Below are positions 2,947 through 27,630 of a DNA stretch of 27,630 nucleotides, one piece after another. The DNA is taken from positions 1 to 27,630 of the IMG/VR virus record IMGVR_UViG_3300022747_000266; one strand, given 5' to 3'. The DNA is from a virus. The notes below the pieces were generated by a model that was not told the origin of the DNA, made no database searches, and saw only the letters and a list, made by a program, of their open reading frames with translations. Both the position numbers and the translations under genes were made by a program. The stretch's first letter is position 1. Each line of letters opens with the position of its first letter.

Positions 2947-2968
2947 TCTGAACCTGATTTTTGTAACC

Positions 2969-3003
2969 ACCCGCCGAGGAGCAATCCCGGCGGGTTTCTT
3001 TTT
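2969..3003 (+). terminator. Intrinsic terminator after the tail tip gene
   Basis: An 8-bp perfect GC-rich stem (2969-2976 with 2988-2995) encloses an 11-base loop and is followed by a T-rich tract (2995-3003). It lies between the tail tip gene and the lysis genes, so it may reduce or separate transcription of the lysis cassette. Confidence 0.72.
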
Positions 3004-3013
3004 GGAGAAATGA

Positions 3014-7530: not shown

Positions 7531-7561
7531 TACTGCATTCCTCTCAGCGCATCCGATTTAT

Positions 7562-8233
7562 TCATTGATTAACCTTCATCATGAGATGATTCCTGAAATA
7601 CTCTATCGACACCACCTCTTGATCAGAGTCGGAAAATTCAACGTACAACTCAATTGACCCTCTGATCTCCATTTCAGAGACTGCATATTGTTTCTTTGGA
7701 GTTGGCCTGATAAAAACAAATTTTTCAACTGGCTTCAAAAAGTGAAGTACAAGCCATACATCTTCTGTTGGATGGTTCTCGGAATATTTAAGCTTGTCCG
7801 GCCGCACCCAGTACGTTGTCCCACGCATGAATTCTGTGCCGGTAACTTCTACGAGCAAAAGAATCCTTCCGCCATCCCGAAGTTTTACCTCAAGATCAGG
7901 TTTGCCTGATTCCGTTGGATGCCCTGAAATGAATTCATTCGTATCTGCGCCAAATCCGACTATTTCAACAAAAACCCGATTGTCAAAACTTTCGATGAGC
8001 GCCTTCACCTTTCCCAAGCGAATCTTTTCTTTGTCCCATGCGCTCTGACCATATGCATGCTTCCAATGATGACTCTCAAGTTCCTTTATTTGCTCGCAAG
8101 AGATGGATTGGCCAACCTTAAGATTGAGGGCGGGAAATGTGCGTGAGCGAATGCTTGTGCAGTAATCGCCGTCAACAAAGATCCAGTAACGCTCGCGATC
8201 AGCTTTGAATTCAATACGCGTGATTGTTGGCAT
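7562..8233 (-). CDS. Probable PD-(D/E)XK nuclease-like protein between mod and res
   Basis: 223 aa, family not recognised. Residues 5-53 (ERYWIFVDGDY...ALNLKVGQSIS...IKELE) resemble the N-terminal portion of RecX-type proteins. Residues 66-165 read like a restriction-endonuclease fold: a helix (WDKEKIRLGKVKALIESF), KPDLEVK (D113), a hydrophobic strand with LLLVEVTGTE (E129, then T131 where the usual lysine would be), a helix and a second hydrophobic strand (DVWLVLHFL). This suggests a PD-(D/E)XK-like protein, possibly with altered chemistry. AGGGG lies about six bases before the ATG. It is 16 bp after mod and 31 bp before res, so it belongs to the operon. Its composition is more AT-rich than res. 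The function is inferred, not established. Confidence 0.6.
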   Translation of the reverse strand: MPTITRIEFKADRERYWIFVDGDYCTSIRSRTFPALNLKVGQSISCEQIKELESHHWKHAYGQSAWDKEKIRLGKVKALIESFDNRVFVEIVGFGADTNEFISGHPTESGKPDLEVKLRDGGRILLLVEVTGTEFMRGTTYWVRPDKLKYSENHPTEDVWLVLHFLKPVEKFVFIRPTPKKQYAVSEMEIRGSIELYVEFSDSDQEVVSIEYFRNHLMMKVNQ

Positions 8234-8249
8234 GAATATCCCCTTGATC

Positions 8250-10145: not shown

Positions 10146-10183
10146 TTATATTCCCATGCTTTCTGAGCTCTTAATCTCGAAAT

Positions 10184-10885
10184 TCAGCTGCTCAATTGTT
10201 CAAATTCGGCTTTTAACTGACGCAAAGTTGCATTAATCTCAACCTTGCGGTTGAATTGTTTTTCCTGAGCCAGTCGTATTTGTATTTTTTCTATTTCTCG
10301 ACGCTTTGCAATCGCTAGCTCTACGCGCGTGATCCAATCGGGCAAGGCTTCTTGCGGATGCGCTGACATCGGCAGCAGGCTTTGCAGCATGGCAGCGTAC
10401 AACTGGGTCATATCGAGTGCCAGTGGCATTGCAATGCGAGCAGTGACGGCTGGAGTCCAATCGGTGGCGAAATAGTCGGAGACCACCCAGCGGTTGGCGT
10501 CAGTCTCGCTTGGTCGTTTGTAAGCCGCCACCATTTGCGTTTTCGCTTGATTGCCCTGTCCTTGGTTCAGTTCAAACAGGATCGGAAACTTCACAGCGTC
10601 ATCTATGCAGCGCAATACTTCTTCGTGTAATTCGGTTGATTTGAGCTGAATGCTAAAAATCTGAATCTCCGGCACACCGGGCCGCGCAAGCAAGTTGATC
10701 GTCTCTGGAGCAAGCTTGTATTGCCAGACAATCTGCTCCACTTGTTCGACAAACAAATTTTTTAAACGAGTGTTGGCTCCGCTGTACTCGTAGATCTTGT
10801 TCTTGGGCAAAACACGCCCCAAAGCTGCCTGCTTGGGATACGCGAATAGTTTTGGTTGCTGTTGTGTGCTTGCGCGTTGAATCAT
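10184..10885 (-). CDS. DUF4391 domain protein of the restriction-modification island
   Basis: 233 aa. The text YPKQAALGRVLPKNKIYEY, the beta-rich middle with EIQIFSIQLK, and YFATDWTP...RIAMPLALD match my memory of DUF4391 proteins. The last 55 residues are charged (about 178-231) and likely form a coiled coil. The family has no known activity; members recur beside site-specific methyltransferases and SNF2-type helicases, as here. AGGAGG stands five bases before the ATG. The ATG overlaps the helicase stop (ATGA), so the two are translationally coupled. It may be a bridging or structural subunit; that is inference. Confidence 0.78.
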   Translation of the reverse strand: MIQRASTQQQPKLFAYPKQAALGRVLPKNKIYEYSGANTRLKNLFVEQVEQIVWQYKLAPETINLLARPGVPEIQIFSIQLKSTELHEEVLRCIDDAVKFPILFELNQGQGNQAKTQMVAAYKRPSETDANRWVVSDYFATDWTPAVTARIAMPLALDMTQLYAAMLQSLLPMSAHPQEALPDWITRVELAIAKRREIEKIQIRLAQEKQFNRKVEINATLRQLKAEFEQLSS

Positions 10886-13800
10886 CCAGCCTCCTGAATC
10901 ACGAGGAAGCTGATGAGCTCGAAGTCATTCAGCCCTGAGATTGAGTCGGTCAGCGCCGTAGTCTTGCCAGAGGAAAATAGACTGTCCAAATCCTTTTCTT
11001 CCTTCACCTCAATCATTGAGCGAATTGATTTGCTCAGCAGGTCTGAGTACATCTGCATCATGCGACCATTAGCCGTTTCTTGATTGAAGAGCTGACACAC
11101 ATCAGCATCTGGCATGTCCTGGCCTTTGCAGCATGTGCGCACCAGATCAAGCAAGCGCTTGACCTCGGTGTGGTTGTGAATGACGTCGCCCTCGCGGCTG
11201 ATGTAGACGAGGTAGAACGGGTGTAGGCGGTTGTGCTGGTTCAGGCTGCTTCCCGCGTTTCGATTACGCAGCGTGAAAATGGCACCTGGACGCAGCCCCA
11301 TCTCGGGTCTGGCGGAAACTACTGCGTGCATTCCGTTGGGCACATTGCTCATTTCTCCGTGAGTTTTGACGTAGTTGAGCAAATCCATACGAAAGTCATT
11401 CAAGCCCAAGTCAGTGATCGAGACCCCAGTCTTCAAATCCTCTAACTCGATGACTTCTTCCTGCAGACGACGCAGTTGTTCTTTGCGGTACGACACGTCA
11501 TTCGCTTGCGCAGACAATACGTTGTCGTCTCCAGTTGCCGTGACGTCGGCGATCATCATTCGACTCTCGACGCGTTCCTTGAGATTGATGTACTCGTCAA
11601 GCGAAATATCGGGCCAATAGTTGACAAGCTGAATGCTGCTGTTGGGCGAGCCGATGCGATCCACCCGACCAAAGCGCTGGATGATGCGTACCGGATTCCA
11701 GTGGATGTCGTAGTTAATCAGATAATCGCAGTCCTGCAGGTTTTGGCCTTCGGAGATGCAGTCGGTGCCAATCAGTAGATCCACCTCGTCCGGTTCGTCC
11801 GGCAGTATCACAGCCTTCTCTTTAGAGCGGGGGGAGAACAGGGTCAGGAGCTCTTGGAAATCGTAGTTTCGCTTCTGAGTTTTGCTCTTGATGGTTGACT
11901 GCGGCGCTCCCTTGCCAGTCACCTTTGCGCTGTGGATGGCGAGTTTGGCCAGTAACTCCGGCGCAAGGTTTGCATACAGGTAATCTGCGGTGTCCGCAAA
12001 GGCAGTGAAGATCAGCACCTTTCTGTTACCAGGGTTGATCGGTTTCTCTATCTTGCCGAGCAGTTGAGCCTTGAGGTGCTGCAACTTTGCGTCGTCCTGC
12101 GGCGTGATCTTGTTCATCGAATCCAACAGCGCATCGATGACCTGTAAGTCCACCTTGAGTTCATGCTCCCAGGACGGCAAGTCCATGTCGGCGAGGCTGA
12201 TTTTTATCTTGTTTCCGATCTCGCCGCTCTCGTCGCCGGGCATCGAGAGATCATCATCTTCGGCATCCAACCCCTCTAGCACTTCGGTGAGATCGTCTAC
12301 CGTAAACGTGCCGCCTGAATGATTGAACGCTTCGATCTTTGCAAGTGTGGATTCGTTGTTGGCGCGCAGCGATTGCAGCGTGAGCCGAAAGGACTGTACC
12401 GAGCTTTCAAGGCGCTTGAGCAGGTTAACCGTCATCAGGGCCTGCAAGCTTTTTTCGCGGTCGGCTTGACGTAGGGTTCCTTTGCTCCCCACCTTGGTGT
12501 CGTAGATTGCCTCGTACTTCTTTAGACGACTGGGCAGTATGTAGCTGATGGGCGCATATACAGCCAGCTTGAGCATGGAGAGCTGCTCGAAGATTTCGTT
12601 GAAGCCCAGTACGTCCGACCGCTCAGTTAGCGGACAGTGGAACGACAGCGGCTTTCGGCGCTCTGGAAATTGGCCTATGTCTTTGGTGTCGTAGAAGGTC
12701 TGGATATGCTTACGTGACCGCGCGATGGTGACGCTATCAAGCAGTTCGAAGAAGTCGAAGTCCAGTGAATCAAGGATCGCTCGCGCGGTACGTTCTTCCG
12801 GGGGGAGCTTAGACCAGGAATTGAAGGCTGCTTGGGCACCACGAAAAATCTCTTCGACGCTCCTGTCTGTGCGCAGCTTCTTTGTGAGTTTTTCGGAGTC
12901 GCCCTCATAGGCCAGGGCAAGTTGGTTACGCAAGTCAGTAAAGCGGTTGTTGACTGGGGTGGCCGACAACATCAGAACCTTGGTCTTGACGCCTTCTTGG
13001 ATCACCTTACGCATTAGCTTTTGGTAACGCGTTTCCTTGTCCTTATAGGCATCGTTGTTGCGGAAGTTGTGCGACTCGTCGATGACTACCAGGTCGTAGT
13101 TGCCCCAGTTGATCCGGTTCAGCGGTGTACCAAAGGACTCACCACTGGTGCGGGAGAGATCCGTGTGGCAAAGGACGTCGTAGTTGAACCGGTCGCGGGC
13201 GAAGATATTGGTCTTGAGGTTGCGGTTGTAATTGAGCCAGTTGTCAGCGAGTTTTTTTGGGCAGAGCACCAGCACCGAGCGGTTGCGTAATTCGTAATAC
13301 TTGACGACGGCTAGTGCTGTGAAGGTCTTGCCCAAGCCGACACTGTCCGCAAGAATGCAACCACTGTAGGTTTCCAGTTTGTTGATGATTCCGGTGGCGG
13401 CATCTTTTTGGTAATTGAAGAGCTTGTTCCAGATCAGAGTGTCCTTGTAACCGGTGCGGTCGTTGGGCAGAACGTCTTCGTTGATGTCGTCGAGGAACTC
13501 GTTGAAGATGTTGTAAAGCATCAAGAAGTAGATGCTTTCGGGAGAGTTCTCCTGATAGACCGAGGCGATGTGCTCGCAAATCTGCTCCGTCACATCCTCC
13601 AGCTTCTCCGGATCGTTCCAGATCTGATCGAACAGGCTCAGGTAGGTGGCCGCAAAGGGAGCCTCATCCATTTTGTTGACGAGGTTGGAGACTGCATTGC
13701 CTTGTTGGTATCCGAGATCGACAGCGGTGAACCCGTGCAGAGGCATGTAAGCGGTGTCGGTTCCGTTTGCTTGGACGCAGGCAAACTGCTGCATTGGCGC

Positions 13801-14172
13801 TTTGGTGCGATTGCTCCGGAACTTGGCCTTTCTGCGTATCCAGTCGGCACACTCTTTGGCCACCGCCCGCTGGGTGAGCTTGTTGCGAAGCTGGATTTCA
13901 AATTCACTGCCGTAGAGACTGCGCTCGCGATCCAGCTTGGGGATGTGGAATTCCTTACGCTCCTTGCGTATCTTGTCAGTAACTTCGTTGGCTACAAATG
14001 TAGGTGAGGTGAAGACGAAGTTAAGCTCCTCGATTTTCTCCAGCTCGGCTTTTAACGCTTCAAAGGCATACATCGAAAAGCACGAAGCTGCGACCTTCAG
14101 ACGCGCACCTGGCGTGAGTGCTTGCTTGAGATCGTCGCCTAGTAAACGACTGATGTTGTCGAGTAGCTCCAT
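10882..14172 (-). CDS. SNF2-type helicase with PLD-like N-terminal domain
   Basis: 1,096 aa. The N-terminal part (about residues 25-170) has the look of a phospholipase D-like domain (KVAASCFSMYAFEALKAEL ... FVFTSPTF), but I see no clear HxKxxxxD motif, so that domain may be degenerate. The SNF2/superfamily 2 core follows: Walker A GLGKT (279-283), DESH (365-368), SATPVNN, and a C-terminal helicase half with QRFGRVDRIGS. Such proteins occur in DNA-methylation defence islands, where they are thought to move along or remodel DNA. It is the second gene of the operon; its ATG overlaps the upstream stop (TGATG) and its stop overlaps DUF4391. It is distinct from Res, so the operon encodes two helicases. 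Confidence 0.86.
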   Translation of the reverse strand: MELLDNISRLLGDDLKQALTPGARLKVAASCFSMYAFEALKAELEKIEELNFVFTSPTFVANEVTDKIRKERKEFHIPKLDRERSLYGSEFEIQLRNKLTQRAVAKECADWIRRKAKFRSNRTKAPMQQFACVQANGTDTAYMPLHGFTAVDLGYQQGNAVSNLVNKMDEAPFAATYLSLFDQIWNDPEKLEDVTEQICEHIASVYQENSPESIYFLMLYNIFNEFLDDINEDVLPNDRTGYKDTLIWNKLFNYQKDAATGIINKLETYSGCILADSVGLGKTFTALAVVKYYELRNRSVLVLCPKKLADNWLNYNRNLKTNIFARDRFNYDVLCHTDLSRTSGESFGTPLNRINWGNYDLVVIDESHNFRNNDAYKDKETRYQKLMRKVIQEGVKTKVLMLSATPVNNRFTDLRNQLALAYEGDSEKLTKKLRTDRSVEEIFRGAQAAFNSWSKLPPEERTARAILDSLDFDFFELLDSVTIARSRKHIQTFYDTKDIGQFPERRKPLSFHCPLTERSDVLGFNEIFEQLSMLKLAVYAPISYILPSRLKKYEAIYDTKVGSKGTLRQADREKSLQALMTVNLLKRLESSVQSFRLTLQSLRANNESTLAKIEAFNHSGGTFTVDDLTEVLEGLDAEDDDLSMPGDESGEIGNKIKISLADMDLPSWEHELKVDLQVIDALLDSMNKITPQDDAKLQHLKAQLLGKIEKPINPGNRKVLIFTAFADTADYLYANLAPELLAKLAIHSAKVTGKGAPQSTIKSKTQKRNYDFQELLTLFSPRSKEKAVILPDEPDEVDLLIGTDCISEGQNLQDCDYLINYDIHWNPVRIIQRFGRVDRIGSPNSSIQLVNYWPDISLDEYINLKERVESRMMIADVTATGDDNVLSAQANDVSYRKEQLRRLQEEVIELEDLKTGVSITDLGLNDFRMDLLNYVKTHGEMSNVPNGMHAVVSARPEMGLRPGAIFTLRNRNAGSSLNQHNRLHPFYLVYISREGDVIHNHTEVKRLLDLVRTCCKGQDMPDADVCQLFNQETANGRMMQMYSDLLSKSIRSMIEVKEEKDLDSLFSSGKTTALTDSISGLNDFELISFLVIQEAG

Positions 14173-14513: not shown

Positions 14514-14532
14514 ACCTGTGGAGGTGTTTCAT

Positions 14533-15180
14533 ATGCGGCAAGTAGTTCACCATGAAGTTGTTAGTGTCCAGTCTCGCTTGGCTGAGTTGGGGTTGGATGA
14601 AGCTGATTTGCGTGATGCGGTCATGCAAGGCATGCTCGCTCGAAGCGAATGCACCCCCAATGACCCACCCCTAACGCCGGGATTCAATTCATGGTCACGA
14701 ACAGTTAGAGCTTTGCGTGAGAAGTTGATCCCCAAACACTGGACGCGTTCAGATGAAGGCAACTATCCATTGGTAGTCAATCCCGCAGGGAACTTGGCAA
14801 TTGCAGTGGCAACTGGAGATGATTGCACTGCCATTGCAACCTCGAACCCAATGACTAAGTCTCCTAAGGGGCCGCGAACTCAAAGTGCAATTGAAGTAAA
14901 TCAGTATCAGAGCTCTTTGTTTGAAGGGTTCCCAGATTTTGACGTGCCTGCGACTCCTCACAATGATCGAGTCACCTGGATCTTGCTGCAGCACTATGAC
15001 CAACGGAAAAAAGAAGTCCGTTTTGAGTTGTCACGTCCGTCTAGCTACGCTGGAAAAATTGACGGTTGGAGTGAGCGAATTATTTTGAATGGCTTGCCAT
15101 TTGACCCGGCCTTGGTGATCCCTGTCCCAATGGTTCCAAATCTGCCAGATATCGATATTCCATTGATTCGACGTGCTTAA
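14533..15180 (+). CDS. Unknown protein, conserved partner of XRE-ImmA regulator
   Basis: 215 aa from the ATG at 14533, chosen because GGAGG lies eight bases upstream; a GTG at 14518 overlaps that site. There are no membrane segments or known catalytic motifs. Notable text: SWSRTVRALREKLIPKHWTRSDEGNYPLVVNPAGNLAIAVATGDD, then a lysine-proline-rich SPKGPRT and a C-terminal region with VTWILLQHYD and ELSRP. I recall similar proteins directly before XRE-ImmA/IrrE genes in other Proteobacteria, so it may be the target or toxin-like partner of the protease. It is 11 bp from the next gene and surely co-transcribed. The function is unknown. Confidence 0.7.
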   Translation: MRQVVHHEVVSVQSRLAELGLDEADLRDAVMQGMLARSECTPNDPPLTPGFNSWSRTVRALREKLIPKHWTRSDEGNYPLVVNPAGNLAIAVATGDDCTAIATSNPMTKSPKGPRTQSAIEVNQYQSSLFEGFPDFDVPATPHNDRVTWILLQHYDQRKKEVRFELSRPSSYAGKIDGWSERIILNGLPFDPALVIPVPMVPNLPDIDIPLIRRA

Positions 15181-15191
15181 CGGATAGGGCT

Positions 15192-16286
15192 ATGTTCAAT
15201 CCAACGCGTTTAACTTTCGCCAGAAAGCGGCGAGGGTTCACCATGACACGACTGGCTGATGAGGTCGGCGTAGAGATGCGATCGATCTCTGGTTTTGAAA
15301 AACTGGAGTACAAACCTTCAGAGGACACTGTCCAGCGTATTGCAAAAGCATTGCGTTTTCCTCTGGAGTTTTTCTATCAAGAAGAAGAACTGCAAACCAT
15401 TGATAGTGGTGCTGCGAGTTTCCGTTCGCTCTCAAAAATGTCTGCAGCGCAGCGCGATATGGCCTTGTATTCAGGTGCGTTAACAATCACGCTGAATCAA
15501 GCAATTGAAAGACGATTCGAGCTCCCTGTTTCAAATTTGCCGGATCTGAGAGATTCCGACCCCGAGGCGGCGGCTGCAAGTCTGCGCCGCCACTGGGGCA
15601 TCGGAGAATTGCCCATTAAGAACATGATTCATTTGCTTGAAGCAAATGGTGTTCGTGTTTTTTCGTTGGCAATCGATGCAGCTGAGGTTGACGCATTTTC
15701 AATGTGGCGTGAACAAAAGCCATTTGTTTTTTTAAACACACTTAAAAATACTGAGCGCAGCCGATTTGATGCTGCGCATGAACTTGGCCATCTCGTGATG
15801 CATCGCCACGGCTCTCCGAATGGAGGGCAAGAAATCGAAAGAGCTGCGAATGATTTTGCAGCAGCTTTCCTGATGCCATCCGGAAGTGTCCTAGGCTATG
15901 CGCCAAAATTCATATCGATCGATGTGCTGCTCCAACTCAAAAAGATATGGGGAGTGTCGATTTCGGCACTGACCTATCGAATGCACAAACTCGGGCTATT
16001 GACGGAATGGCAGTACCGCGAGCTTTTTGTGCAAATTAGTCGACGAGGCTACCGTAAGTCTGAACCCGAGAGTTTGCCGCGTGAAACATCGCAGATCCTC
16101 GGAAAAGTCTTTACGGCATTACGAAAAGAAGGTGTTGCGAAATCCGATATTGCAGCCGAGTTGCATGTGGCTGATGAAGAGCTTGATGAAATGGTCTTTG
16201 GTCTTGTTTTGAACGCAGTGAAAAAAGGTGCGGGCCAAGAAACAAAGCCAGCGCGAGCCAAGCCTGATCTACATCTTGTGAGCTGA
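15192..16286 (+). CDS. XRE-family regulator with ImmA/IrrE metallopeptidase domain
   Basis: 364 aa. Residues 6-62 are a Cro/C1-type HTH (RLTFARKRRGFTMTRLADEVGV ... DTVQRIAKAL). The peptidase domain has HELGH (H196, E197, H200) and a third zinc ligand probably at E216 in EIERAANDFAAAFLMP, all as in the ImmA/IrrE family, so the active site is intact. C-terminal about 100 residues contain a second helical region. Such proteins repress an operon and destroy a partner or repressor on a signal such as DNA damage or phage infection. The upstream 215-aa gene is the likely partner. It may also control the divergent defence operon (inference). Confidence 0.9.
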   Translation: MFNPTRLTFARKRRGFTMTRLADEVGVEMRSISGFEKLEYKPSEDTVQRIAKALRFPLEFFYQEEELQTIDSGAASFRSLSKMSAAQRDMALYSGALTITLNQAIERRFELPVSNLPDLRDSDPEAAAASLRRHWGIGELPIKNMIHLLEANGVRVFSLAIDAAEVDAFSMWREQKPFVFLNTLKNTERSRFDAAHELGHLVMHRHGSPNGGQEIERAANDFAAAFLMPSGSVLGYAPKFISIDVLLQLKKIWGVSISALTYRMHKLGLLTEWQYRELFVQISRRGYRKSEPESLPRETSQILGKVFTALRKEGVAKSDIAAELHVADEELDEMVFGLVLNAVKKGAGQETKPARAKPDLHLVS

Positions 16287-16801: not shown

Positions 16802-16987
16802 ATGACATTTGATTTGTTCCCAGATGATGAGAATGATCTGCCGATGTTGGTTGTTCGTATTCATATCCAAAAACAAGTAATCCAGCACTATCAAGAGATG
16901 CGGCTTCAGCACTGTGTGGAAAAAGAAGCTCAAGAGCTAGATCAGTTGGAAAAAAAGCTAACGTGGTTATCATTGAAAATTAAGTGA
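16802..16987 (+). CDS. Small unknown acidic/helical protein
   Basis: 61 aa from the ATG at 16802; AGAGGAA lies four bases upstream. The N-terminus is acidic (DLFPDDENDLP), followed by a short beta-like stretch (MLVVRIHI) and a long amphipathic helix with EKEAQELDQLEKKLTWLSLKIK that could be coiled coil. There is no catalytic motif and no known family. It is 20 bp after the preceding gene and ends the plus-strand operon. Confidence 0.55.
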   Translation: MTFDLFPDDENDLPMLVVRIHIQKQVIQHYQEMRLQHCVEKEAQELDQLEKKLTWLSLKIK

Positions 16988-17081: not shown

Positions 17082-17188
17082 GCGAAATGAGCGAAATGAG
17101 CGAAATCAGCGAAATCAGCGAAATCAGCGAAATGTGTTTCGCCACAATGGTTTAGACATGGTCAAGCCTGGCGAAATGAGCGAAATCA
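17082..17188. repeat. Array of 9-bp direct repeats with an inverted repeat
   Basis: Six tandem 9-bp units of the form GCGAAATSA run without spacers from 17082 to 17135 (GCGAAATGA twice, GCGAAATCA three times, then GCGAAATGT). The last unit forms a 6-bp inverted repeat with TTTCGC at 17137-17142 around TGTG. Two more units lie at 17171-17188, and the second of these contains the TGA stop of the ATPase gene on the minus strand. The array lies between two convergent operons. Iteron-type protein binding, a replication origin or a segregation site for the adjacent mobile element are possible; the sequence alone does not decide. Confidence 0.85.
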
Positions 17189-18559
17189 GGTCGAGGCTCC
17201 TAGCGCAAGCAAGCGGTAGAACCGCGTTGGTGAGCCGGGGGCGTCAGTGGGTCGTTGCTGCCACTCGACGCAGATTTTCGGTGGAGTTGTTGAGAGCAGG
17301 TAATCCAGGCACGAATCAATCTGTGCCTTGGATGATTTGCCTTTGAAGCAGTCAGAGCTGATTTCACTTCTGGAGGCTTTGCCATGCGCCTGCAGATAGC
17401 TCAGCAGCCTTTGCGCGAGGTGCAGCGCATGCGACATCCTTGCCTCGTCAGTGGCGCTCACAAAAACGTATCGCACTGATTCCATTCCATACCGGATCCA
17501 AGCTGCGGCGGCTTCAATGTGTGTCACGTTAATCTGCGTTTGCAGATCAGACAGCGCAAAGATCATTGCCATGCGCAAGAGCATCGGGGCACGTCTTTCG
17601 AGCATTGCACTTATCAATTCACTACCAGGATCATCAGATAGTTCAGCACGATACAGGTGTGAGTACAGCCAATGGGCTTGTGGTGCGAGCTCCATTCGAA
17701 TGCGGTCCCTGCGTTCGTGATTGTCTGCACAGACAAATTGCAGGATCTGACAAACACGATGTGCCAACTCGTCAACCACGGATTGCGAGGTGGCCTTCGG
17801 GAAGGGCAGTATTCGGCTTCGTTCGGCCCATATCATCATGAAGCGATTGGCAAATCCGTTAGTCAATTCCCGTGAGTTCATCAGCGAGGTCAGTTCACTC
17901 GGGGATATTGCTCCGCTGAGGCAAACGTGTGGATGGCTTGCATAAAGCCGATTTGATTTGGTCGCTGGCTTCAGGCACACGCCATCCCAACAGTCACGCA
18001 GGGCAGCAGACAGCGTGTTGCCTTCCCGTCGGCCTTGATGCAGCACATTGGCGAACTCCGATTCAACAACCCATAGGCGCTTATCTTCTATCGGGGGAAC
18101 CTCGTTCTTTCCCTGCTGGTAGCCGTCGTGCATCAGCGCCACCAATCCTTCGCGACTGGACAGTCCGCCTCGGTGAATTTGCGGTGCCAGTGTCGGTTCG
18201 ATCTCTCTAAGTGCTTGATCAAGACGCAGAACCAATGACAGAGCGTCACCCTTGCGCCCGCGTCCAGATCTTCCAATATGCAGAAGAAAAAGGCGGGGAT
18301 GGTGCCAGGTATTTCCGATGGGTAAGTACACCCCACGGCCAATCGCGCAGGATAAATATGTCATGAAGTTTGCGGCGACGGCGTAGGGATTGGTCTCGGT
18401 TTCGTCGCCGCCTACTCGTCCAATTTCACCGACTAATCCATAGAGGCAAGCTGGATCTGGTTGCGGTGAATTTCTGTGGACATCAATGTCGATGAAGTCA
18501 TCCATGAGAGGCTTTGCAAGACCGTTGGTCTGGCCAGCCGTTTTCGAGGCCTGCTGCAT
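17186..18559 (-). CDS. DUF3987-type P-loop ATPase of the recombinase operon
   Basis: 457 aa. A P-loop-like GRSGRGRKGD sits at residues 96-105; it is a variant of Walker A with RKG instead of GK(S/T), which I recall as typical for a DUF3987 subfamily. A Walker B-like region reads RLWVVESEFANVL (about 162-174), and SGAISPSEL could be a sensor motif. The C-terminal 80 residues look helix-turn-helix-like (SRSEISSDCFKGKSSKAQID). DUF3987 proteins are helicase/primase-related and unstudied. It is 12 bp after ParB 2 and the last gene of the minus-strand operon. Its stop codon lies within a 9-bp repeat unit. No strong ribosome-binding site is seen before the ATG at 18559, so the start is less certain. 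Confidence 0.75.
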   Translation of the reverse strand: MQQASKTAGQTNGLAKPLMDDFIDIDVHRNSPQPDPACLYGLVGEIGRVGGDETETNPYAVAANFMTYLSCAIGRGVYLPIGNTWHHPRLFLLHIGRSGRGRKGDALSLVLRLDQALREIEPTLAPQIHRGGLSSREGLVALMHDGYQQGKNEVPPIEDKRLWVVESEFANVLHQGRREGNTLSAALRDCWDGVCLKPATKSNRLYASHPHVCLSGAISPSELTSLMNSRELTNGFANRFMMIWAERSRILPFPKATSQSVVDELAHRVCQILQFVCADNHERRDRIRMELAPQAHWLYSHLYRAELSDDPGSELISAMLERRAPMLLRMAMIFALSDLQTQINVTHIEAAAAWIRYGMESVRYVFVSATDEARMSHALHLAQRLLSYLQAHGKASRSEISSDCFKGKSSKAQIDSCLDYLLSTTPPKICVEWQQRPTDAPGSPTRFYRLLALGAST

Positions 18560-18571
18560 GACAGATGCCGC

Positions 18572-19453
18572 TCATTTGTCTAATGCCACTGTTCTCACAA
18601 TGTGCTCGAACTCAACAAGCACATCGGGATGGTTGTGGGAAAGGTATCGAATGACGGCTTCGTTATCCAGCAGCTTGACGAGGTAGCCCTTTGCCAAGAC
18701 AAGATTCAACACATCTTGCCCGTAGGTCTGTTCAACCAGTTTGAACTGACCCTGAATATTGCCCATCTCCCTTTCCATCTTGGCCATTTGCTCTGGCGTC
18801 AAGCCACCAATCTTCTTGGGCTTGACCTCATCAACCAGCAAATGGCTTGGTGTTGCTGCCAGCAAAGCCTGCGCGTAGGACACGGTGATGTTGTTGGTTG
18901 CCACCATCAGCTCTACGCACTCAACCTGCCGAGTTGGTTTGAGTTTTCGGATGACTGCCCCAACGTTGGCCGAAAACTGCTGGTCCTTAAGCAGCTCTGC
19001 TGCCTCAGCGCAGACGCCATCAAGAAGGTTCATTTTCTTGATGATGTGGCTGATGTCCACGCTCAGGGCCTGCGCCAGGCGAGCTGGTGTGACGCCGCGT
19101 TCCACAGCACGACGGATCATGAAGTGCTCTTGGATGGTGGACAGCCGATTGATTCGATTGTTGTAGGTATAGGTTTCATCGTCGGTCGCCACCAGGCAAG
19201 GGGCATCTTTGAAACCGATCTGCTTCATGGCGAATAGCCGAATGTGGCCATCAAGCAAAACATGCATGCCAGTGGTTTTGTCTGGCTTGCCTATGGTCAA
19301 CGGCTCAATCAGACCGACGGCATCAATGGACGACTGAATTTGCTTGAATTTTCTGGAGGTGAGCAGACCTTCTGGAACTTTCCGCGAAGGCAATAGCAAG
19401 TCCAGTGAAATCGTCAACGGATCCGGAACGAAGCCAAGGGGCATTTGTGTCAT
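18572..19453 (-). CDS. ParB-like protein 2, RepB C-terminal domain type
   Basis: 293 aa from the ATG at 19453, which overlaps the ParB 1 stop (ATGA) and has GGAGG nine bases upstream; an ATG at 19474 would add seven residues. The N-terminal ParB-like domain carries DGHIRLFA (residues 68-75), a variant of the GERRxxA nucleotide-binding box. TYTYNNRINRLSTIQEHFMI follows, then an HTH (TPARLAQALSVDISHIIKK). The C-terminal half matches the RepB plasmid-partition C-terminal domain as I recall it. Such proteins bind DNA sites and may use CTP. It lies between ParB 1 and the ATPase in a coupled operon. No ParA partner is present in the window. Confidence 0.85.
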   Translation of the reverse strand: MTQMPLGFVPDPLTISLDLLLPSRKVPEGLLTSRKFKQIQSSIDAVGLIEPLTIGKPDKTTGMHVLLDGHIRLFAMKQIGFKDAPCLVATDDETYTYNNRINRLSTIQEHFMIRRAVERGVTPARLAQALSVDISHIIKKMNLLDGVCAEAAELLKDQQFSANVGAVIRKLKPTRQVECVELMVATNNITVSYAQALLAATPSHLLVDEVKPKKIGGLTPEQMAKMEREMGNIQGQFKLVEQTYGQDVLNLVLAKGYLVKLLDNEAVIRYLSHNHPDVLVEFEHIVRTVALDK

Positions 19454-20352
19454 GCTGCATGTCCTCCGTGCCAAACGCGTTCGGCCAGGTATTTCGGCAG
19501 CGTGTCCAGACCTTCCGCTCGTAGCAGATTGGTGAAGTTTTCGTTGGCCAGCAGCTGGCGCATTGCTTCGACAACAAAGAGAAGTCGCTGCTGAGCAAAC
19601 TCCGCCTTCTTCACCATCAGTTTTTGCCGCTCAACTTCCTTCTGGTAATTGCGAATCAGACTGGATGAGGTCACCTCTTCAGCGGCTTTGCGAGGCGTGC
19701 CTCGAGCGATGGAGCGGCCAAGGGTCCTTCTGCGTTCGATCACACGGCGCGCCTGGATGAGTTGCTTGCCCCGCAGCTTCCCCGACTCATAGGCTTCTTG
19801 CATCGCTGCCTGAATCTCTTTGTCATTGCCAGCCCCTGCAATGGAGAGCGCCGCGTTCAATGGAATGCGGCCACTTTCAACAGCAACCAGCAATCGCTCT
19901 TCTCCATTTTTCAGTAATTGCAGGATGCCGTTCACATAGTCGACACTCAGGCCCGTTTTTTCGGCGATCGATTTTTTGTCATACCCTTGATCTCTGAGTT
20001 GCTCAATGCCCATGAGCAATTCGAGAGGGCGGCACTGCCTACGCGCAATGTTTTCTGCCAAGCTCATGATGAAGGCATCTTCATCACTGACATTGACAAC
20101 CATGGCCGGGATCAAGGCTTCACCTAAGGTCTTGAACGCTTTGAGCCGCCCCTCGCCACAAATGAGTAAGTATTTCCCTTGGCCACTCTCATCTGTTCTG
20201 GGGGTGACGGTGATTGGTTTTTTCAGACCGATGGATTTGATGTTGCCTACGATCTCGTCGAAGACCTTGTTGTTTCGCTCTCTGGGGTTCAAGACCTCAA
20301 TGCGATCGACAGGAATCATCTGAAGATCTGCAGCCGAATGTTCCAAGCTCAT
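19450..20352 (-). CDS. ParB-like protein 1 (ParB/RepB/Spo0J family)
   Basis: 300 aa. The ParB N-terminal domain is clear: CGEGRLKAF (residues 65-73) as the nucleotide-binding box and SLAENIARR (97-105) as the ENxxR motif. An HTH follows (KKSIAEKTGLSVDYVNGILQLL, about 125-146). The C-terminal 90 residues are helical. It differs clearly from ParB 2, so the two are paralogues of different subfamilies and not a recent duplication. AGGAGG stands six bases before the ATG, which overlaps the recombinase stop (ATGA). Proposed role: DNA binding at a site of the element, with ParB 2. The lack of ParA argues against ordinary partition. Confidence 0.87.
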   Translation of the reverse strand: MSLEHSAADLQMIPVDRIEVLNPRERNNKVFDEIVGNIKSIGLKKPITVTPRTDESGQGKYLLICGEGRLKAFKTLGEALIPAMVVNVSDEDAFIMSLAENIARRQCRPLELLMGIEQLRDQGYDKKSIAEKTGLSVDYVNGILQLLKNGEERLLVAVESGRIPLNAALSIAGAGNDKEIQAAMQEAYESGKLRGKQLIQARRVIERRRTLGRSIARGTPRKAAEEVTSSSLIRNYQKEVERQKLMVKKAEFAQQRLLFVVEAMRQLLANENFTNLLRAEGLDTLPKYLAERVWHGGHAA

Positions 20353-21965
20353 GCTGCCCTCCTGATTCGACTGCGTTCTGCCATGCCGTACAGGTAGTCC
20401 AGGTTGTCAAAGCGATAGCTTTCATACTCAAGACCGTTGTGATCTGCCAGACTGACGCGAGCTTGGCCAAAATCCAGTCGTGGCAGCAGGTAGTAGTCCA
20501 GTGGAGCCTGGTTGGTCTCATCCAGCCGCACGGCCACGGTAATGTCGGGAGCCAGGCCAGTGTCAAACCGAACCTTCCAGCGCCTTCGCCCGTTTTCATG
20601 GAGCTGGCAACGTGACAAGACCAGTGATGCGGTGAACTCTTGGTTCACATTCAGCATGTCGGTTGCTGGATCCCGCTGCACTGTGCCACCCAGGTCTGCA
20701 ATCATCCGTTCGGTGTGAGCAATGATGTCCGGATGCAAGCGCCGCAGGTACTGATTGATCTCAAGGAAGCGGTAATCTCGATCCGGGGTGTAGCCCACCG
20801 CCTGGTAGGCACGAATCAGGCTTCCGAATCGGTGTATGTATGCAGACGCCGATGGCATGCCTTCTGTCTCGTCAATGATCAGCCCCGATAAGTAGCCTCG
20901 GTTCTGATAGAGATTTCGCAGCTTCTCGATCAACTCTTCGTTGCTGTACCGGTGTGATCTTGCTCGCAGAATCCCCTGGGCGGTGTAGAAAACTTCCGGT
21001 GGCACGATGCCCTCGAACGCCCCCTCTTTCTTGATCCACATGTCTGGTTCATTCGAGACGCGATGCTTCTTGAGCTTGAAGGAGATGCGGTTGTAGACGT
21101 TATTGCCGATGTACTTCTCGTTGGTCAGTACCTCGCGTACTGTTGCACGAGTCCAGTCCCGCTCCAGATCAGTTTGAATGCCCATGGTGTTGAGCCGTTG
21201 GGCAATTTCAAATTCCCGCAACCCATCGTCAATGAACCAGCGATAGATCATGTTGACGTTCTGAATTTCGGGGTCTGGCCCTGGCATCAAGATGACCCGG
21301 TCGGTTTGCAAGCTCTTGTGCTCACCTCGCGAGAGCTCACCTTTGACGGATCCAGTTTGATCAATCAGGACGCGTCGCAGACCATACCCGGCGGGGCCAC
21401 CTTGGCGGTATCCGAGCTCGATGAGTCGGCACTGGCCTGCGAAAACCTTCGCCGACAGTTCTCGGCTGTATTCACCAGCCATGGCACGTTTGACACCCTT
21501 GACGATGGTGGACACCGGCGAGCCGTCGTTTTCGAACTGCTCCGCAACGTACACCACATGGATGTTTTTGCGCTTGCAGATGTATTCGTAATACGCGCTT
21601 TCATCCGCGTCCTGGAATCGTCCCCACCGGCTGACGTCATAAACGAGCACGAGGTTGAAGTCGGCCTGGCCTGACTCGACATCATGGATGAGTTGCTGCA
21701 ATGCCAGTCGCCCACCGATGTTCAGGCCGCTCTTACCCTCGTCGGCATAGGTGCGCACGATCGCAATATTGCGCCGGGCCGCGTACTCACGGATCTTGTC
21801 TGCCTGGTTTTCTGTTGAGTACTGTTGATGTTCAGTGGACATCCGAACGTATTCGGCTGCTTTGACGTTGCTAGGTTGGTCCGTTGCATCGTGGATGGAC
21901 TCTTCTGACTGCATATAACCCGATCGCTTGTTGTTAGTGTTGATGCGCTCGGGCCTGCCATTCAT
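20349..21965 (-). CDS. Large serine recombinase
   Basis: 538 aa from the ATG at 21965; ATG at 21914 (521 aa) is an alternative, and neither has a good ribosome-binding site. The resolvase domain has EYVRMSTEHQ (catalytic Ser43), then VYDVSRWGRFQDADES and the E-Y-S-R-E-L-S segment. The recombinase domain holds GGPAGYGLRR and EVLTNEKYIGNNVYNR. No zinc-ribbon cysteine cluster is visible, and the C-terminal 200 residues, which include FGSLIRAYQAVGYTPDRDYR, are particular to this family. It probably integrates or excises an element and heads the recombinase-ParB-ParB-ATPase set. Translation is coupled to ParB 1. Confidence 0.9.
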   Translation of the reverse strand: MNGRPERINTNNKRSGYMQSEESIHDATDQPSNVKAAEYVRMSTEHQQYSTENQADKIREYAARRNIAIVRTYADEGKSGLNIGGRLALQQLIHDVESGQADFNLVLVYDVSRWGRFQDADESAYYEYICKRKNIHVVYVAEQFENDGSPVSTIVKGVKRAMAGEYSRELSAKVFAGQCRLIELGYRQGGPAGYGLRRVLIDQTGSVKGELSRGEHKSLQTDRVILMPGPDPEIQNVNMIYRWFIDDGLREFEIAQRLNTMGIQTDLERDWTRATVREVLTNEKYIGNNVYNRISFKLKKHRVSNEPDMWIKKEGAFEGIVPPEVFYTAQGILRARSHRYSNEELIEKLRNLYQNRGYLSGLIIDETEGMPSASAYIHRFGSLIRAYQAVGYTPDRDYRFLEINQYLRRLHPDIIAHTERMIADLGGTVQRDPATDMLNVNQEFTASLVLSRCQLHENGRRRWKVRFDTGLAPDITVAVRLDETNQAPLDYYLLPRLDFGQARVSLADHNGLEYESYRFDNLDYLYGMAERSRIRRAA

Positions 21966-22087
21966 TTCAGGGGATGGTGAACAGCCAGAGGTTTTTGGCT
22001 TTCACACATGTCCCCGAAACGGTTGCCATGCAGGTGGTCGAAATCGCATTTGGGAGCAACGGTAATGCCCAGCAACACAAATGACCA

Positions 22088-22504
22088 TCAAGTCCTATCT
22101 TTGCAAGCGTCATCTTTGCAGGGGCAGTCTGCGCAAACGGGCGTGATCTCAACGATCCACGCGTCTGTCTTTGCAAGCCCACTGGCAGGCACTGACTTGA
22201 TGCGATAAAGGCCTTCCAGGGTTGGTGGGGGTGCAGATGGCGACCGCTGCATGGCCCTGTTGCGCTCGGCATAGTCCGGGTTTTCATCGCGATACCTGCG
22301 CCAATAATCCGGGTTGCGCTCTTGCCAGGCTTTCTGCGACCGAGCTTTGTTCTCTCGGTAGTCTGGATCGGCCTGCAGCTTTTCGAGGTGCCAGCGTTGC
22401 CGCCGTGCTTTTTGGCATGCCGGGTCAGCGCAGAAGGTCTGACTGGGCACTTGGGGACGAGGTTGGAACGGGGAACCGCAGTTGGCGCAAAGCTTTTCGG
22501 GCAT
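22088..22504 (-). CDS. Cysteine-rich protein upstream of the recombinase
   Basis: 138 aa from the ATG at 22504 (a TTG just before it is less likely); GGAGA lies about six bases upstream. The N-terminus has a likely zinc-binding C-x2-C...C-x4-C (C6, C9, C25, C30) and the C-terminus has a second cluster (CADCPC...C). Between them are three copies of an (N/D)PDY-containing unit rich in Arg, Lys and Trp, which suggests DNA binding. I recall similar proteins beside this kind of recombinase, function unknown. It is 122 bp upstream of the recombinase on the same strand, so it may be co-transcribed. No enzymatic motif is seen. Confidence 0.72.
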   Translation of the reverse strand: MPEKLCANCGSPFQPRPQVPSQTFCADPACQKARRQRWHLEKLQADPDYRENKARSQKAWQERNPDYWRRYRDENPDYAERNRAMQRSPSAPPPTLEGLYRIKSVPASGLAKTDAWIVEITPVCADCPCKDDACKDRT

Positions 22505-22512
22505 CAAATGTC

Positions 22513-22533
22513 TCCATACAAAAGTTGTATGGA
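22513..22533. promoter_or_regulatory. Perfect inverted repeat before the cysteine-rich gene
   Basis: A 9-bp perfect inverted repeat (TCCATACAA and TTGTATGGA, 3-base spacer) covers 22513-22533. It starts nine bases upstream of the minus-strand start at 22504 and overlaps the ribosome-binding region. It is a good candidate for an operator controlling the recombinase operon, or for an RNA hairpin that hides the ribosome-binding site. There is no T-run, so a terminator is unlikely. Confidence 0.6.
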
Positions 22534-22620
22534 AACTCTCGTTCCCCCCGGTTCTTACCCCTAAGAAGTCACCATGGTTGCGCCTGCTGGCTAGTTATGG
22601 CCAACAGGAGAAGATTCAAT

Positions 22621-22737: not shown

Positions 22738-23196
22738 ATGGAAAACCAATTCCGCGATCTTCAGCTCCAGCAAATGGACGCACTTCTTGCCACTTGGAAG
22801 GCTGCGCAATTGAGCGCACGCCCCAGGTCTGGATGGGTGCGCGCGATTCGTGAGTCCCTGGGCATGTCCGCCGCAGCCTTTGCTCGTCGTCTGGGCATGT
22901 CCCATGCCGGTGTCCGCAAGCTGGAAAATGCAGAGGCGTCAGATGTCATCACGTTGGCCAGCCTGCGCAAGTTGGCTGAGGCGTTGGATTGCGAACTGCA
23001 ATATGCCTTGGTGCCTCGTACCAGCCTGTCGCAGCATGTGAAAGAACGAGCCGAGTCAGTGGCGCGGGAGCGCTTGCGCCCGATTGCCCATTCAATGGCA
23101 TTGGAGGATCAGGCTGTCCAAGGGCCATTGACCAAGCTGCAACTGGAGCTGGCCATCAAGGAGTTGCTCGAAGGTTCGCGTCGGGAACTGTGGTGA
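22738..23196 (+). CDS. Mobile mystery protein A (XRE-type HTH)
   Basis: 152 aa, the usual size. Residues 39-63 form the HTH (AIRESLGMSAAAFARRLGMSHAGVRKLENAE), followed by a segment LRKLAEALDCELQYALVP that I associate with this family (TIGR02612, from memory). These HTH proteins were named for their presence in mobile elements together with the Fic-domain protein B, encoded 10 bp downstream here. A and B may form a toxin-antitoxin-like pair with A as repressor or antitoxin; this is inference. The ATG immediately follows a dyad operator, and only a weak ribosome-binding site (AGGTT) is visible, which favours autoregulation. Confidence 0.88.
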   Translation: MENQFRDLQLQQMDALLATWKAAQLSARPRSGWVRAIRESLGMSAAAFARRLGMSHAGVRKLENAEASDVITLASLRKLAEALDCELQYALVPRTSLSQHVKERAESVARERLRPIAHSMALEDQAVQGPLTKLQLELAIKELLEGSRRELW

Positions 23197-23206
23197 GATA
23201 TTGAAT

Positions 23207-23794
23207 ATGGAATTTCATTACGCCCCAGGGGCAACCCCATTAGATCCGGACGAAGCCGCAGGTTTGGTGCCGACGCACATTACCACCCAAGGCGATCTAA
23301 ACGCATGGGAGCAAATCAACATCGTTCAGGGGGATCGCTGGGCTGCGCGCCAGAAAAAGCGGGACTTGCTGGATGAGGGGTTTATTCGAGATCTGCATCG
23401 CCAGATGTTTGATAAGACCTGGCAGTGGGCGGGAACATTCCGCAAGACCAATAAAAACATCGGTGTGGACTCGACACAGGTGGCGGTGAAGTTACGCAAC
23501 TTGCTGGACAATACAAAATATCAAATCGAGAATCATGTCTTTGATGCCGATGAGACGGCAGTGAGGTTTCACCATCAATTGGTGTGGATCCATGCCTTCC
23601 CGAATGGCAACGGACGCCATGCACGTTTGATGGCAGATTTGTTGGCAATGCGTCTTGGCCGTCCGCGACTGACATGGGGCGGCGGCGAAACATCCATCAC
23701 CACGGTGGGGGAGCTACGCGATCAATACCTTGCCGCCTTACGTGCAGCAGACCAGGGGCAGTTCGGCGATTTGATTGCATTTGCTCGCAGTTGA
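23207..23794 (+). CDS. Mobile mystery protein B (Fic-domain protein)
   Basis: 195 aa from the ATG at 23207; the TTG at 23201 is less likely. The N-terminus YAPGATPLDPDEAAGL and the Fic core HAFPNGNGRHAR (residues 129-140) with TFRKTNKNIG (77-86, the flap region) identify the family. Fic enzymes usually AMPylate proteins using HxFx(D/E)GNGRxxR. Here the D/E position is Asn (N133), so activity may be weakened or different. Genes of this kind sit after mobile mystery protein A in mobile elements. Translation is likely coupled (10-bp gap). A degenerate copy of its 3' end occurs about 890 bp downstream. Confidence 0.88.
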   Translation: MEFHYAPGATPLDPDEAAGLVPTHITTQGDLNAWEQINIVQGDRWAARQKKRDLLDEGFIRDLHRQMFDKTWQWAGTFRKTNKNIGVDSTQVAVKLRNLLDNTKYQIENHVFDADETAVRFHHQLVWIHAFPNGNGRHARLMADLLAMRLGRPRLTWGGGETSITTVGELRDQYLAALRAADQGQFGDLIAFARS

Positions 23795-24656: not shown

Positions 24657-24694
24657 GATTTGATTGCATCTGTCCACAGTTGAAAAAAGGGAGC
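24657..24694 (+). pseudogene. Degraded copy of the 3' end of the Fic gene
   Basis: This 38-bp stretch aligns without gaps to 23768-23805 with 30 identical bases, including 13 in a row at the left end. Both copies end in the same frame: DLIAFARS-stop in the Fic gene, DLIASVHS-stop here. Before it, a short open stretch (about 24600-24656) shows only faint similarity. It suggests an old duplication, or replacement of one Fic-linked cargo by another; nothing is expressed as a protein here. Confidence 0.62.
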
Positions 24695-24697
24695 CAT

Positions 24698-25852
24698 ATG
24701 CCAAGCGGATTGCCAAGCGCACAAGCATTGCTGGAAGACAAGAGCGTTGGCTTCTTTTCCATCGATACGGACGTAATTCAGAGCCATGCGTACAAATTTT
24801 CCGCCGGTGCGTTACGTGCATTGCCACTGCAGAGACCGGCTTGGTTGACCATCCAGCAAACTGAAATTGTTGAGCGGGAAGTCCACGCTCATCGAATGGA
24901 GCCAGTGTCCAAGGTTGCCAAAGAGTTGAATGCGGCAATTGCAAAACTGCAACGCCTATCAGGGCTGAATTTCACCCCTGTCAGTGAACAAGTCAAAGCG
25001 CTTGATTCCGAATCTGTCACCGCTCGCAATTTTTCCAGAGAGTTCAGTGCCTTTGTGGCAAGCCTAGGTGGAGGCGTCCTGCCAATAGCTGGGCCGGATT
25101 TGGCGCGGCAGATGTTTGACCGCTATTTCCAAGAAGCAGCACCATTCGAAGCCAGAAAGAAGTCCGAATTCCCCGATGCTGCCGCGCTTTTGACACTGGA
25201 AAACCATGCCAAGGCAACCCAAAAGCAAGGCATCTTGATCTCGAAGGACGGCGGTTGGACAGATTTCGCCAAGCACAGTGATTGGCTCTACTGTGTGAAA
25301 TCCTTGGATGAATTCGCCGCGCTGTTCAAGTCCACCAATCCGGTGGCAGCGGGCGTGACCGCGAAAGTCAGTGCGGAGCTCTCAAACACCGCCAGCAGTC
25401 TTTCTACGTTGGTACAGGCCGCAGTTGAAAACCATGTCACTGGCGCATATTGGAATGCAGATGATGTTTGGACGGGGTTCTGTCACCGTGTTGAGGCAGA
25501 GGTGGATCAAGCGCACTACCTTGGTCATTCGGTGGACCTGACTGGAATCGGTACATGGTTGGTGGAACATGACCCTACCATTTGCATCATCGAGGTCAGG
25601 GCGACAGTTCAGGTCTCGGTGGACGTGAATGTTGAATTCTTTATATACGACACCATCGACCATGAAGAGCTTAATTTTGGCTCTCTAGAGGTCTCACGCG
25701 ATCATGAAATGGAAGTCGATGTGTTCATTACCTTGCGTGGCGATCTGGAGCATGCGGCTGTTGATGAGCTGGACCCATCAATTGAGCTGGCTGGTGGTGA
25801 GTATGACGTTGAGGTTGGGGAAGTTGAACCTGATTTCGATATGGAGTCATAA
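24698..25852 (+). CDS. PIN-like (DUF4935-type) putative RNase
   Basis: 384 aa from the ATG at 24698, preceded by GGGAG at five bases; a TTG at 24680 is less likely. The first about 205 residues fit a PIN-like nuclease: FSIDTDVIQ (D23), a conserved acidic stretch EIVEREVHAH (E56/E59/E61), SEFPDAAALLTL (D160) and ISKDGGW (D184), the pattern I recall for DUF4935. PIN proteins usually cut RNA, often as toxins. The remaining about 180 residues are of unknown fold, contain short beta-like repeats and end in an acidic tail (EVEPDFDMES). No antitoxin is recognisable next to it; the small gene downstream is a membrane protein. Fairly confident about the PIN domain, not about its target. Confidence 0.68.
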   Translation: MPSGLPSAQALLEDKSVGFFSIDTDVIQSHAYKFSAGALRALPLQRPAWLTIQQTEIVEREVHAHRMEPVSKVAKELNAAIAKLQRLSGLNFTPVSEQVKALDSESVTARNFSREFSAFVASLGGGVLPIAGPDLARQMFDRYFQEAAPFEARKKSEFPDAAALLTLENHAKATQKQGILISKDGGWTDFAKHSDWLYCVKSLDEFAALFKSTNPVAAGVTAKVSAELSNTASSLSTLVQAAVENHVTGAYWNADDVWTGFCHRVEAEVDQAHYLGHSVDLTGIGTWLVEHDPTICIIEVRATVQVSVDVNVEFFIYDTIDHEELNFGSLEVSRDHEMEVDVFITLRGDLEHAAVDELDPSIELAGGEYDVEVGEVEPDFDMES

Positions 25853-27054: not shown

Positions 27055-27389
27055 TGATGTGAGTCTGAATTCTTGTTGGGAATGAATCGCCACGCATTCG
27101 GAGCGGGGGCTTGGTAAATATAAGCGACTGATCCACGACCGTATTCCCTGGCGGTCATTGGCGGTGGCAGGAAGCATTTGGTGGGGATACAATCAACTCC
27201 AAGCAAGTGTCACTGTGTTGGCGCAAGCAATCGACACACGCACGGGGACAAAATTTCCCGAACCAGTGAGGTGGTTAGAGCAGATTCTTGGATGCACTCC
27301 GTATTCCTCATTGGGGGCAAGCCCGGGACGGCACGTCTCACACCTACGGGATGAGTGTTTGCCGAACTGCTATACTCCACCACCAATCC
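27055..27389. other. Region without a recognisable gene
   Basis: This stretch holds only short ORFs with no family features. It contains TATACT at 27371-27376, but no fitting -35 box. I compared it with tRNA and tmRNA ends because of CCACCA at 27377-27382 and found no cloverleaf or TpsiC arm. Confidence 0.5.
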
Positions 27390-27421
27390 AAGACGCCCAA
27401 CTGTTCTCAGTTGGGCGTCTT
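27390..27421. terminator. Perfect hairpin, possible terminator
   Basis: A 14-bp perfect stem (27390-27403 with 27408-27421) closes a 4-base loop TTCT. The plus-strand tail (CTTCATTTGGGG) is only partly T-rich, so efficiency is uncertain. It may end a transcript entering from the left, or a small RNA. Confidence 0.6.
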
Positions 27422-27630
27422 CATTTGGGGCATCCCCAGAGCACGCGGGGTGTGGCGCAATTCTACGTGTGCCAACCCCCTCCGGTACTTGGGGCGGTAT
27501 TGACCCCCAAATCTCATACTCTGCCTTCTCTTCTCACGAAACTTCTGCAAACCCTCACGCTGTGGCACACGCAGAACGCCTTTCACGGCAACAACTTACG
27601 CGTGTGTCGGATACGAAGGTTTTGCTATCG
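27422..27630. other. Right edge without a recognisable gene
   Basis: About 210 bp with no convincing ORF or RNA. GC-rich short inverted repeats (for example GGGGCATCCCC near 27427-27437) are visible, but there is nothing I can name. Confidence 0.4.

Follow-up and report, generated by a model that had tools for sequence, protein, structure and literature searches.

The 27,630-nucleotide stretch of viral DNA analysed here (IMG/VR virus record IMGVR_UViG_3300022747_000266; called the window throughout, with all coordinates counted over its whole length) carries on its minus strand an operon that encodes, in this order, a cysteine-rich (Cys-rich) protein, a serine recombinase (Rec), two ParB-family proteins (ParB 1 and the RepB-type ParB 2) and a DUF3987 protein, and that ends in TTTCGC repeats. 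On balance, we consider that this cassette serves to mobilise a compact integrative element, which here is carried within the cargo of a temperate phage, and that the ParB pair probably acts in recombination. The cassette consists of the following features, where labels beginning with L or G denote relative loci and genomes of our comparison:

22511-22534, minus strand: leader hairpin of the Cys-rich gene (TCCATACAA..TTGTATGGAGA), which includes the Shine-Dalgarno sequence of the gene and recurs in the loci with covarying arms
22088-22504, minus strand: cassette gene 1, Cys-rich protein with zinc-ribbon-like CxxC motifs and (N/D)PDY repeats; a tblastn homologue lies directly upstream of the recombinase in 87/101 loci
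20349-21965, minus strand: serine recombinase with Resolvase, Recombinase and HNH_repeat matches in Pfam; PDB relatives TP901-1 integrase and TnpX; phrog_95 integrase
19450-20352, minus strand: ParB 1 with ParB N-domain (CGEGRxxA, ENxARR) and RepB domain, from Pfam, PDB matches to Spo0J, Noc and KorB, and a model match
18572-19453, minus strand: ParB 2, RepB-type (PF07506), with invariant LLDG(H)xR and NxxxNR, from Pfam and a motif alignment
17186-18559, minus strand: DUF3987 protein, an optional fifth gene present in 21/101 loci, with a degenerate P-loop and a winged-helix-like C-terminal part
17082-17190, minus strand: TTTCGC repeat block, which sharply bounds the DUF3987-type cassette on the right; a block of ~83 bp is conserved in at least 16 loci, with a second copy in L052

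Rec (21965-20349) and ParB 1 (20352-19450) are joined by an ATGA overlap, and a second such overlap links the ParB 1 stop to ParB 2, which begins with the ATG at 19453 instead of the TTG listed at 19474. Only 12 bp separate the ParB 2 stop (18572) from the DUF3987 start (18559), and the Cys-rich reading frame runs from an ATG at 22504 to a stop at 22088, 122 bp ahead of Rec. The first-pass annotation of this DNA had described the gene order, the strand, both overlaps and both gaps as well as the (N/D)PDY repeats, all of which our check of the open reading frames reproduced; its start of the feature at 17082 is the start of the 9-bp repeat array and hence a real part of it.

Do these genes form one module? 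A profile of the recombinase, run against one genome per species, found 588 relatives, and in the best 80 of these loci, which were fetched, the order Cys-Rec-ParB-RepB is constant except at contig ends or where genes have decayed. Where the recombinase is nearly full-length (101 loci), ParB 1 accompanies it in 93, ParB 2 in 92, the Cys-rich protein in 87 and DUF3987 in 21. The same order recurs on viral contigs and plasmids; the trio of recombinase, ParB and RepB is found on plasmids of Alpha-, Beta- and Gammaproteobacteria at 55-75% recombinase identity, and in L026, where the recombinase has diverged to 37% identity, both ParB partners still follow in order. Pairwise distances correlate at 0.71 for Rec and ParB 1, 0.78 for Rec and ParB 2 and 0.75 for the two ParB proteins, while permuted maxima reach at most 0.27. 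Because Rec, ParB 1 and ParB 2 co-vary so strongly and DUF3987 occurs in only 21 of the 101 loci, we regard four genes as a single module with DUF3987 as an optional fifth. Thus, of the five-gene module proposed in the first-pass annotation, the joint conservation of four genes in Beta- and Gammaproteobacteria (of the trio in Alphaproteobacteria) stands, whereas an obligate DUF3987 gene does not; the annotation's own doubt, that the genes might not be kept together in other genomes, is not borne out by these loci. The module is rare: of 369 genomes drawn evenly from the class, 4 have the recombinase (~1% of the sampled species), the centre genome among them, and of the other three one holds an intact trio and two are decayed. 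No match was found in E. coli genomes. A proteobacterial-type cassette with 58% recombinase identity also appears in a Firmicute plasmid record (NZ_CP110863, Lactiplantibacillus plantarum), which is probably contamination.

Relatives of the module are integrative elements, as pairs of filled and empty sites and flanking direct repeats demonstrate. On Sphingobium plasmids, a 5.66-kb insert comprising two left-hand genes and the trio is present in L130 and absent from L126; direct repeats of ~76 bp enclose it (14708-14783 and 20369-20445), and element sequence gives way to target sequence within TCCGGCCGTG. On the chromosome of Pseudomonas sp. GL-B-19 (L049), a 4.75-kb insert between repeats at 9063-9255 and 13808-14000 holds only Cys-Rec-ParB-RepB, and a contiguous empty site exists in G547 and G443 (empty/filled comparison L139-L140/L049). 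In Roseomonas, a 7.4-kb stretch occurs at 100% identity in two contexts, and 130-bp repeats flank Rec, two RepB genes and a restriction gene; in L093 the flanking repeats are the 3' end of a tRNA-Val gene. Across the relatives these repeats measure ~50-190 bp. The minimal inserts contain the cassette genes and 0-2 others, with no relaxase or type IV secretion genes, and the minimal Pseudomonas element has no replication gene. The integrative character suggested in the first-pass annotation is therefore borne out for the relatives, and the comparison of element ends that it proposed yielded both flanking repeats and empty sites in Sphingobium and Pseudomonas. Among IncP-2 megaplasmids, no record with contiguous flanks was found that could serve as the empty site of a Pseudomonas aeruginosa copy, and the Thiomonas flanks gave no clean empty site.

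The edges of DUF3987-type cassettes were delimited from megablast pairs, which share a unit of 5.46 kb reaching from 30-55 bp before the Cys-rich gene to the TTTCGC block, with differing flanks on both sides. The conserved ~83 bp follow directly after DUF3987, and beyond them the sequences diverge. In L052 the second copy of the block lies on the left, beyond an AbiE pair. Ends of the inverted-repeat (transposon) kind were rejected, since the left-end profile has no counterpart at the right.

What do the proteins themselves suggest? Rec matches PF00239 (Resolvase, 6e-23) and PF07508 (Recombinase, 9e-22); its catalytic region is invariant in 16 relatives, with S43 in the motif YVRMST. No zinc-ribbon family of Pfam matched, an HNH_repeat match being obtained instead, and the best NCBIfam relative is CcrB, far below its cut-off. 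ParB 1 matches ParB_N (4e-11) and RepB (9.5e-21), and the best structural relatives of its model (pLDDT 71) are Noc, KorB and CTP- or CDP-bound ParB. It keeps the nucleotide-pocket motifs of ParB, Noc and KorB, and on the strength of these motifs CTP binding is predicted. ParB 2 matches RepB at 1.2e-45 and ParB_N weakly, and of the CTP-binding motifs it has a variant, LLDGHxR. ParA (PF13614) had no match in the window or in 16 related phage records, 17 in total, and none is annotated in the cassettes, in line with the absence of ParA stated in the first-pass annotation. The Cys-rich protein, which contains CxxC motifs and three (N/D)PDY repeats, matched no Pfam or NCBIfam family. Its leader hairpin recurs in 79 examined loci (mean z -2.1 against shuffles), and the arms change together, e.g. 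TCCATGC/GCATGGA versus TCCAGT/ACTGGA; since the hairpin contains the ribosome-binding site of the gene, this covariation suggests translational control. The label of P-loop ATPase given to the fifth protein in the first-pass annotation is weakly founded: the Pfam match (PF13148, 3e-18) is limited to residues 160-366 and misses the P-loop part, the invariant glycine-rich GRSGRGRKGD (residues 96-105) has no Walker A Ser/Thr, and the model is poor (pLDDT 52) and unfit for a fold search. We regard it as a doubtful ATPase with a degenerate P-loop.

From this context we infer the roles of ParB 1, ParB 2, the Cys-rich protein and the DUF3987 protein, and the activity of the copy in the window. The serine recombinase inserts the element at its target by site-specific recombination and leaves the ~50-190-bp direct repeats, as the filled and empty sites of relatives demonstrate. 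The two ParB-family proteins, made together and co-evolving with the recombinase, would bind the element ends; ParB 1 may act as a nucleotide-switched clamp, and the pair could decide synapsis or the direction of the reaction, like the directionality factors of other serine integrases. For the Cys-rich protein, a regulator under translational control or an independent DNA-binding component is probable. DUF3987 and the TTTCGC repeats may be an optional add-on, perhaps for replicating an excised form. That the ParB pair serves recombination is suggested by its coupling to the recombinase, by their co-evolution and by its retention in minimal elements that have nothing else to maintain; an obligate accessory role in synapsis or directionality is favoured because ParB 1 keeps its pocket motifs and ParA is absent.

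Several points weigh against this interpretation. The present data do not separate an action of the ParB pair in recombination from one in transcription or maintenance. Flanking repeats were detected in only ~10 loci, and their 50-190 bp exceed the usual core of serine integrases, which spans a few bp. For the DUF3987-type cassette no empty site was recovered, so that its ends are defined by sharp limits of similarity and by the single repeat pair in L052. Finally, many copies are decayed (e.g. L055 and L151), and the mobility of the copy in the window is for this reason unproven. A far-reaching version of the mobility reading, in which the recombinase would work only in complex with the two ParB-family clamps, with nucleotide-controlled end loading setting the direction of integration and loading exchangeable defence genes beside the cassette in phages and plasmids, would amount to a new class of recombination machine; we entertain it only tentatively and hold it to be rather doubtful.

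Alternatively, the ParB pair could partition or stabilise the circular form after excision, possibly together with a ParA of the host; DUF3987 and the repeats would then supply helicase and origin, and integration would be the only task of the recombinase. Such a maintenance role, which was the other option of the first-pass annotation, draws on the ParB and RepB homology, on the RepB/ParB annotation of such genes on plasmids, on the repeat array adjoining DUF3987 and on the prediction of DUF3987 domains as mobile-element helicases (PMC5862659). We nevertheless think it unlikely, as no ParA is found in the window or the 16 phage records, the ParB pair is constant but only about one-fifth of the loci have DUF3987 and the repeats, the minimal Pseudomonas element lacks a replication gene and the P-loop of DUF3987 is degenerate. 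The TTTCGC repeats are no more than candidate parS sites.

The window further places the cassette in a phage setting that the first-pass annotation had overlooked: a phage cargo zone with defence-rich flanks, in a phage whose close relative has a serine integrase of its own. The cassette sits in a cargo zone of ~23 kb between the tail and lysis genes of the phage and an attachment junction at 27385, amid the following features:

233-4352, plus strand: structural and lysis end of the phage with minor tail protein, tail fibre J and endolysin (PHROGs), 94-97% identical to G001
4468-14172, minus strand: cargo of Type III restriction (res 4468-7530, mod 8250-10145), DUF4391 and SNF2 helicase (PADLOC, family matches)
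14518-16286, plus strand: cargo RmrT (14518-15180) and RmrA (15192-16286), PADLOC 1.4e-64 and 4.1e-154
22738-23794, plus strand: cargo mobile mystery protein A (helix-turn-helix) and B (Fic), a likely toxin-antitoxin pair, TIGR02612 1.3e-43 and TIGR02613 2.8e-73
24680-25852, plus strand: cargo PIN-domain protein, PF16289 2.9e-18
27380-27385, minus strand: TGGTGG core of the attachment site, at which the phage right end (27386-27630) meets the cargo-side left end (27385 downwards), from the left-end motif and end matches

The relative G001, of 62 kb, shares cargo and cassette with the window, with the said 94-97% identity over the tail and lysis genes. A conserved left end starting with TGGTGG was found in eight loci. 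For the Thauera copy, an empty site in a 97% identical relative identifies TGGTGG as the 3' end (CCACCA) of tRNA-Phe; a second Thauera junction, located beside an intact tRNA-Phe on a different contig from the first, carries phage DNA whose homologue in G001 lies close to the integrase. In the window, the left-end motif at 27385 meets a sequence (27386-27630) that matches the tRNA-proximal phage end, hairpin included, and the contig thus crosses a joined attachment site, of either a circular phage genome or tandem prophages. A junction similar to 27380-27630 of the window was seen in L116 (5748-5790). Terminators as a target, considered for left ends beside terminator hairpins, were rejected, since these terminators belong to the tRNA target or to the phage end.

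Nearest-gene censuses with PADLOC and Pfam, made with no random-locus control, list AbiEi/AbiEii and Fic on the left flank and DISARM, Wadjet, BREX, AbiL and other helicase/ATPase systems on the right. Could the trio, much like an integron platform, load or swap defence or toxin-antitoxin genes beside the conserved right block in phages and plasmids? Defence genes abound on both flanks (AbiE, DISARM, Wadjet, BREX, Rmr), one 10.6-kb Wadjet cargo adjoins two different cassette types (L046/L056), and one and the same cassette stands beside differing cargo (L045/L059). However, phage mosaicism and homologous recombination explain such swapping equally well, the cargo begins 100-155 bp from that block and not at a single fixed base, and no site motif was found on the cargo side, so that we give this possibility a low probability. 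Pieces of 135 bp shared by the right flanks were rejected as element ends, as they are SNF2 helicase motifs. In an unrelated genome (L148:7989-8285), mobile mystery protein A lies directly upstream of the trio, as in the window.

The same setting in defence islands, together with the discussion of ParB/Srx-fold proteins as conflict effectors (PMC10853773), could point to a defence or regulatory system, i.e. a ParB-fold nuclease or a Noc-like silencer of invading DNA. We find this quite improbable, because ends, direct repeats and empty sites of its own mark the module, as they mark mobility modules, and because it moves without cargo in Pseudomonas. That the cassette is simply the integrase of the window phage, as its place beside phage tail genes in viral contigs L009-L018 and the absence of a tyrosine integrase from all 17 phage records might suggest, is most improbable, since G001 and L031 have, at the other phage end, a classical serine integrase distinct from it (phrog_95 in G001), the region of this classical integrase and not the cassette adjoins the tRNA-Phe junction in Thauera, and the cassette also occurs on plasmids and chromosomes without phage genes.

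Further observations concern the surroundings of related cassettes. The array at 17082-17133 of the window has six tandem TTTCGC copies whereas close relatives, L002 for example, have two or three, from which we conclude that it expands or contracts. In cassettes without DUF3987, a conserved stretch of ~225 bp follows (L003:8543-8768 and 13 other loci, alignment A2); it contains a perfect boxA-like antitermination motif, TCTTTAACAA, which is invariant, and a long covarying hairpin ending in AACAGCGGC. Rfam matched nothing, either for this conserved RNA after RepB or for the window. The Sphingobium target (L126:14710-14785 and 16902-16973; L130) is a leader-like sequence that recurs before a plasmid SSB gene, and the cargo at this spot is in turn arsenic, NhaA or the cassette. 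Two NusG/RfaH-like genes, 62% identical in DNA, flank the cassette in L016 (7158-8183 and 11992-12495) and L009 (6603-7109 and 10962-11468); the right one in L016 heads a polysaccharide operon, and rfaH is a possible additional target. Sequences resembling the 3' end of tmRNA (ssrA), seen by eye and not called by ARAGORN, stand beside the cassette in the left flanks of L043, L068 and L080 as a further possible target. One or two diverged serine recombinases lie close by the cassette in L072, L104, L108 and L020, as though several elements had accumulated at a single site, and in L151 (Ottowia, G018:C1:1445451-1450500) a second, frameshifted boxA-type cassette, a tandem decayed element, is found ~15 kb from the first.

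CTP-type ParB clamps are known for chromosome and plasmid segregation and for gene silencing. If our favoured reading of a mobility module is true, they additionally assist a site-specific recombinase as accessory components, and the module could be developed into a new integrase tool that has directional control built in. Given its occurrence in phages as well as on plasmids and chromosomes, with anti-phage genes all around, the module may also help to explain the movement of defence genes.

How does the module relate to known systems? Our literature search found no study of this gene set, with subscription journals and preprints outside its range. An element moved by a serine integrase is already known as such; the obligate ParB pair is the unusual feature. 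With the large serine integrases (TP901-1, TnpX and phiC31 type; PF00239 and PF07508) the cassette shares the catalytic resolvase and Recombinase domains and the use of defined sites, including a tRNA 3' end, but Rec has an HNH_repeat and a novel C-terminal region with no detected zinc ribbon, and is accompanied by the ParB pair, the Cys-rich protein and long direct repeats. The SCC cassette chromosome (ccr) likewise combines a serine recombinase module with variable defence-like cargo, whereas the present module has no ccr pair, uses another target and possesses a ParB pair. The DUF3987 putative mobile-element helicases (PMC5862659) have the PF13148 domain and the mobile-element location in common with the fifth protein, which in contrast stands alone, without a primase, has a degenerate P-loop and is optional. 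Compared with RepABC, both cassette ParB proteins contain the RepB domain (PF07506; 1e-45 and 1e-20), yet RepA (ParA) and RepC are missing, and the RepB-type genes, the only ones of that system present, are embedded in an integrative element. Finally, the ParB, Noc and KorB CTP-switch clamps resemble the cassette proteins in the N-domain motifs GExRxxA and ENxxR, the helix-turn-helix and a similar fold, while the cassette differs from them by the lack of ParA, a second, divergent RepB-type paralogue and the translational coupling to a recombinase.

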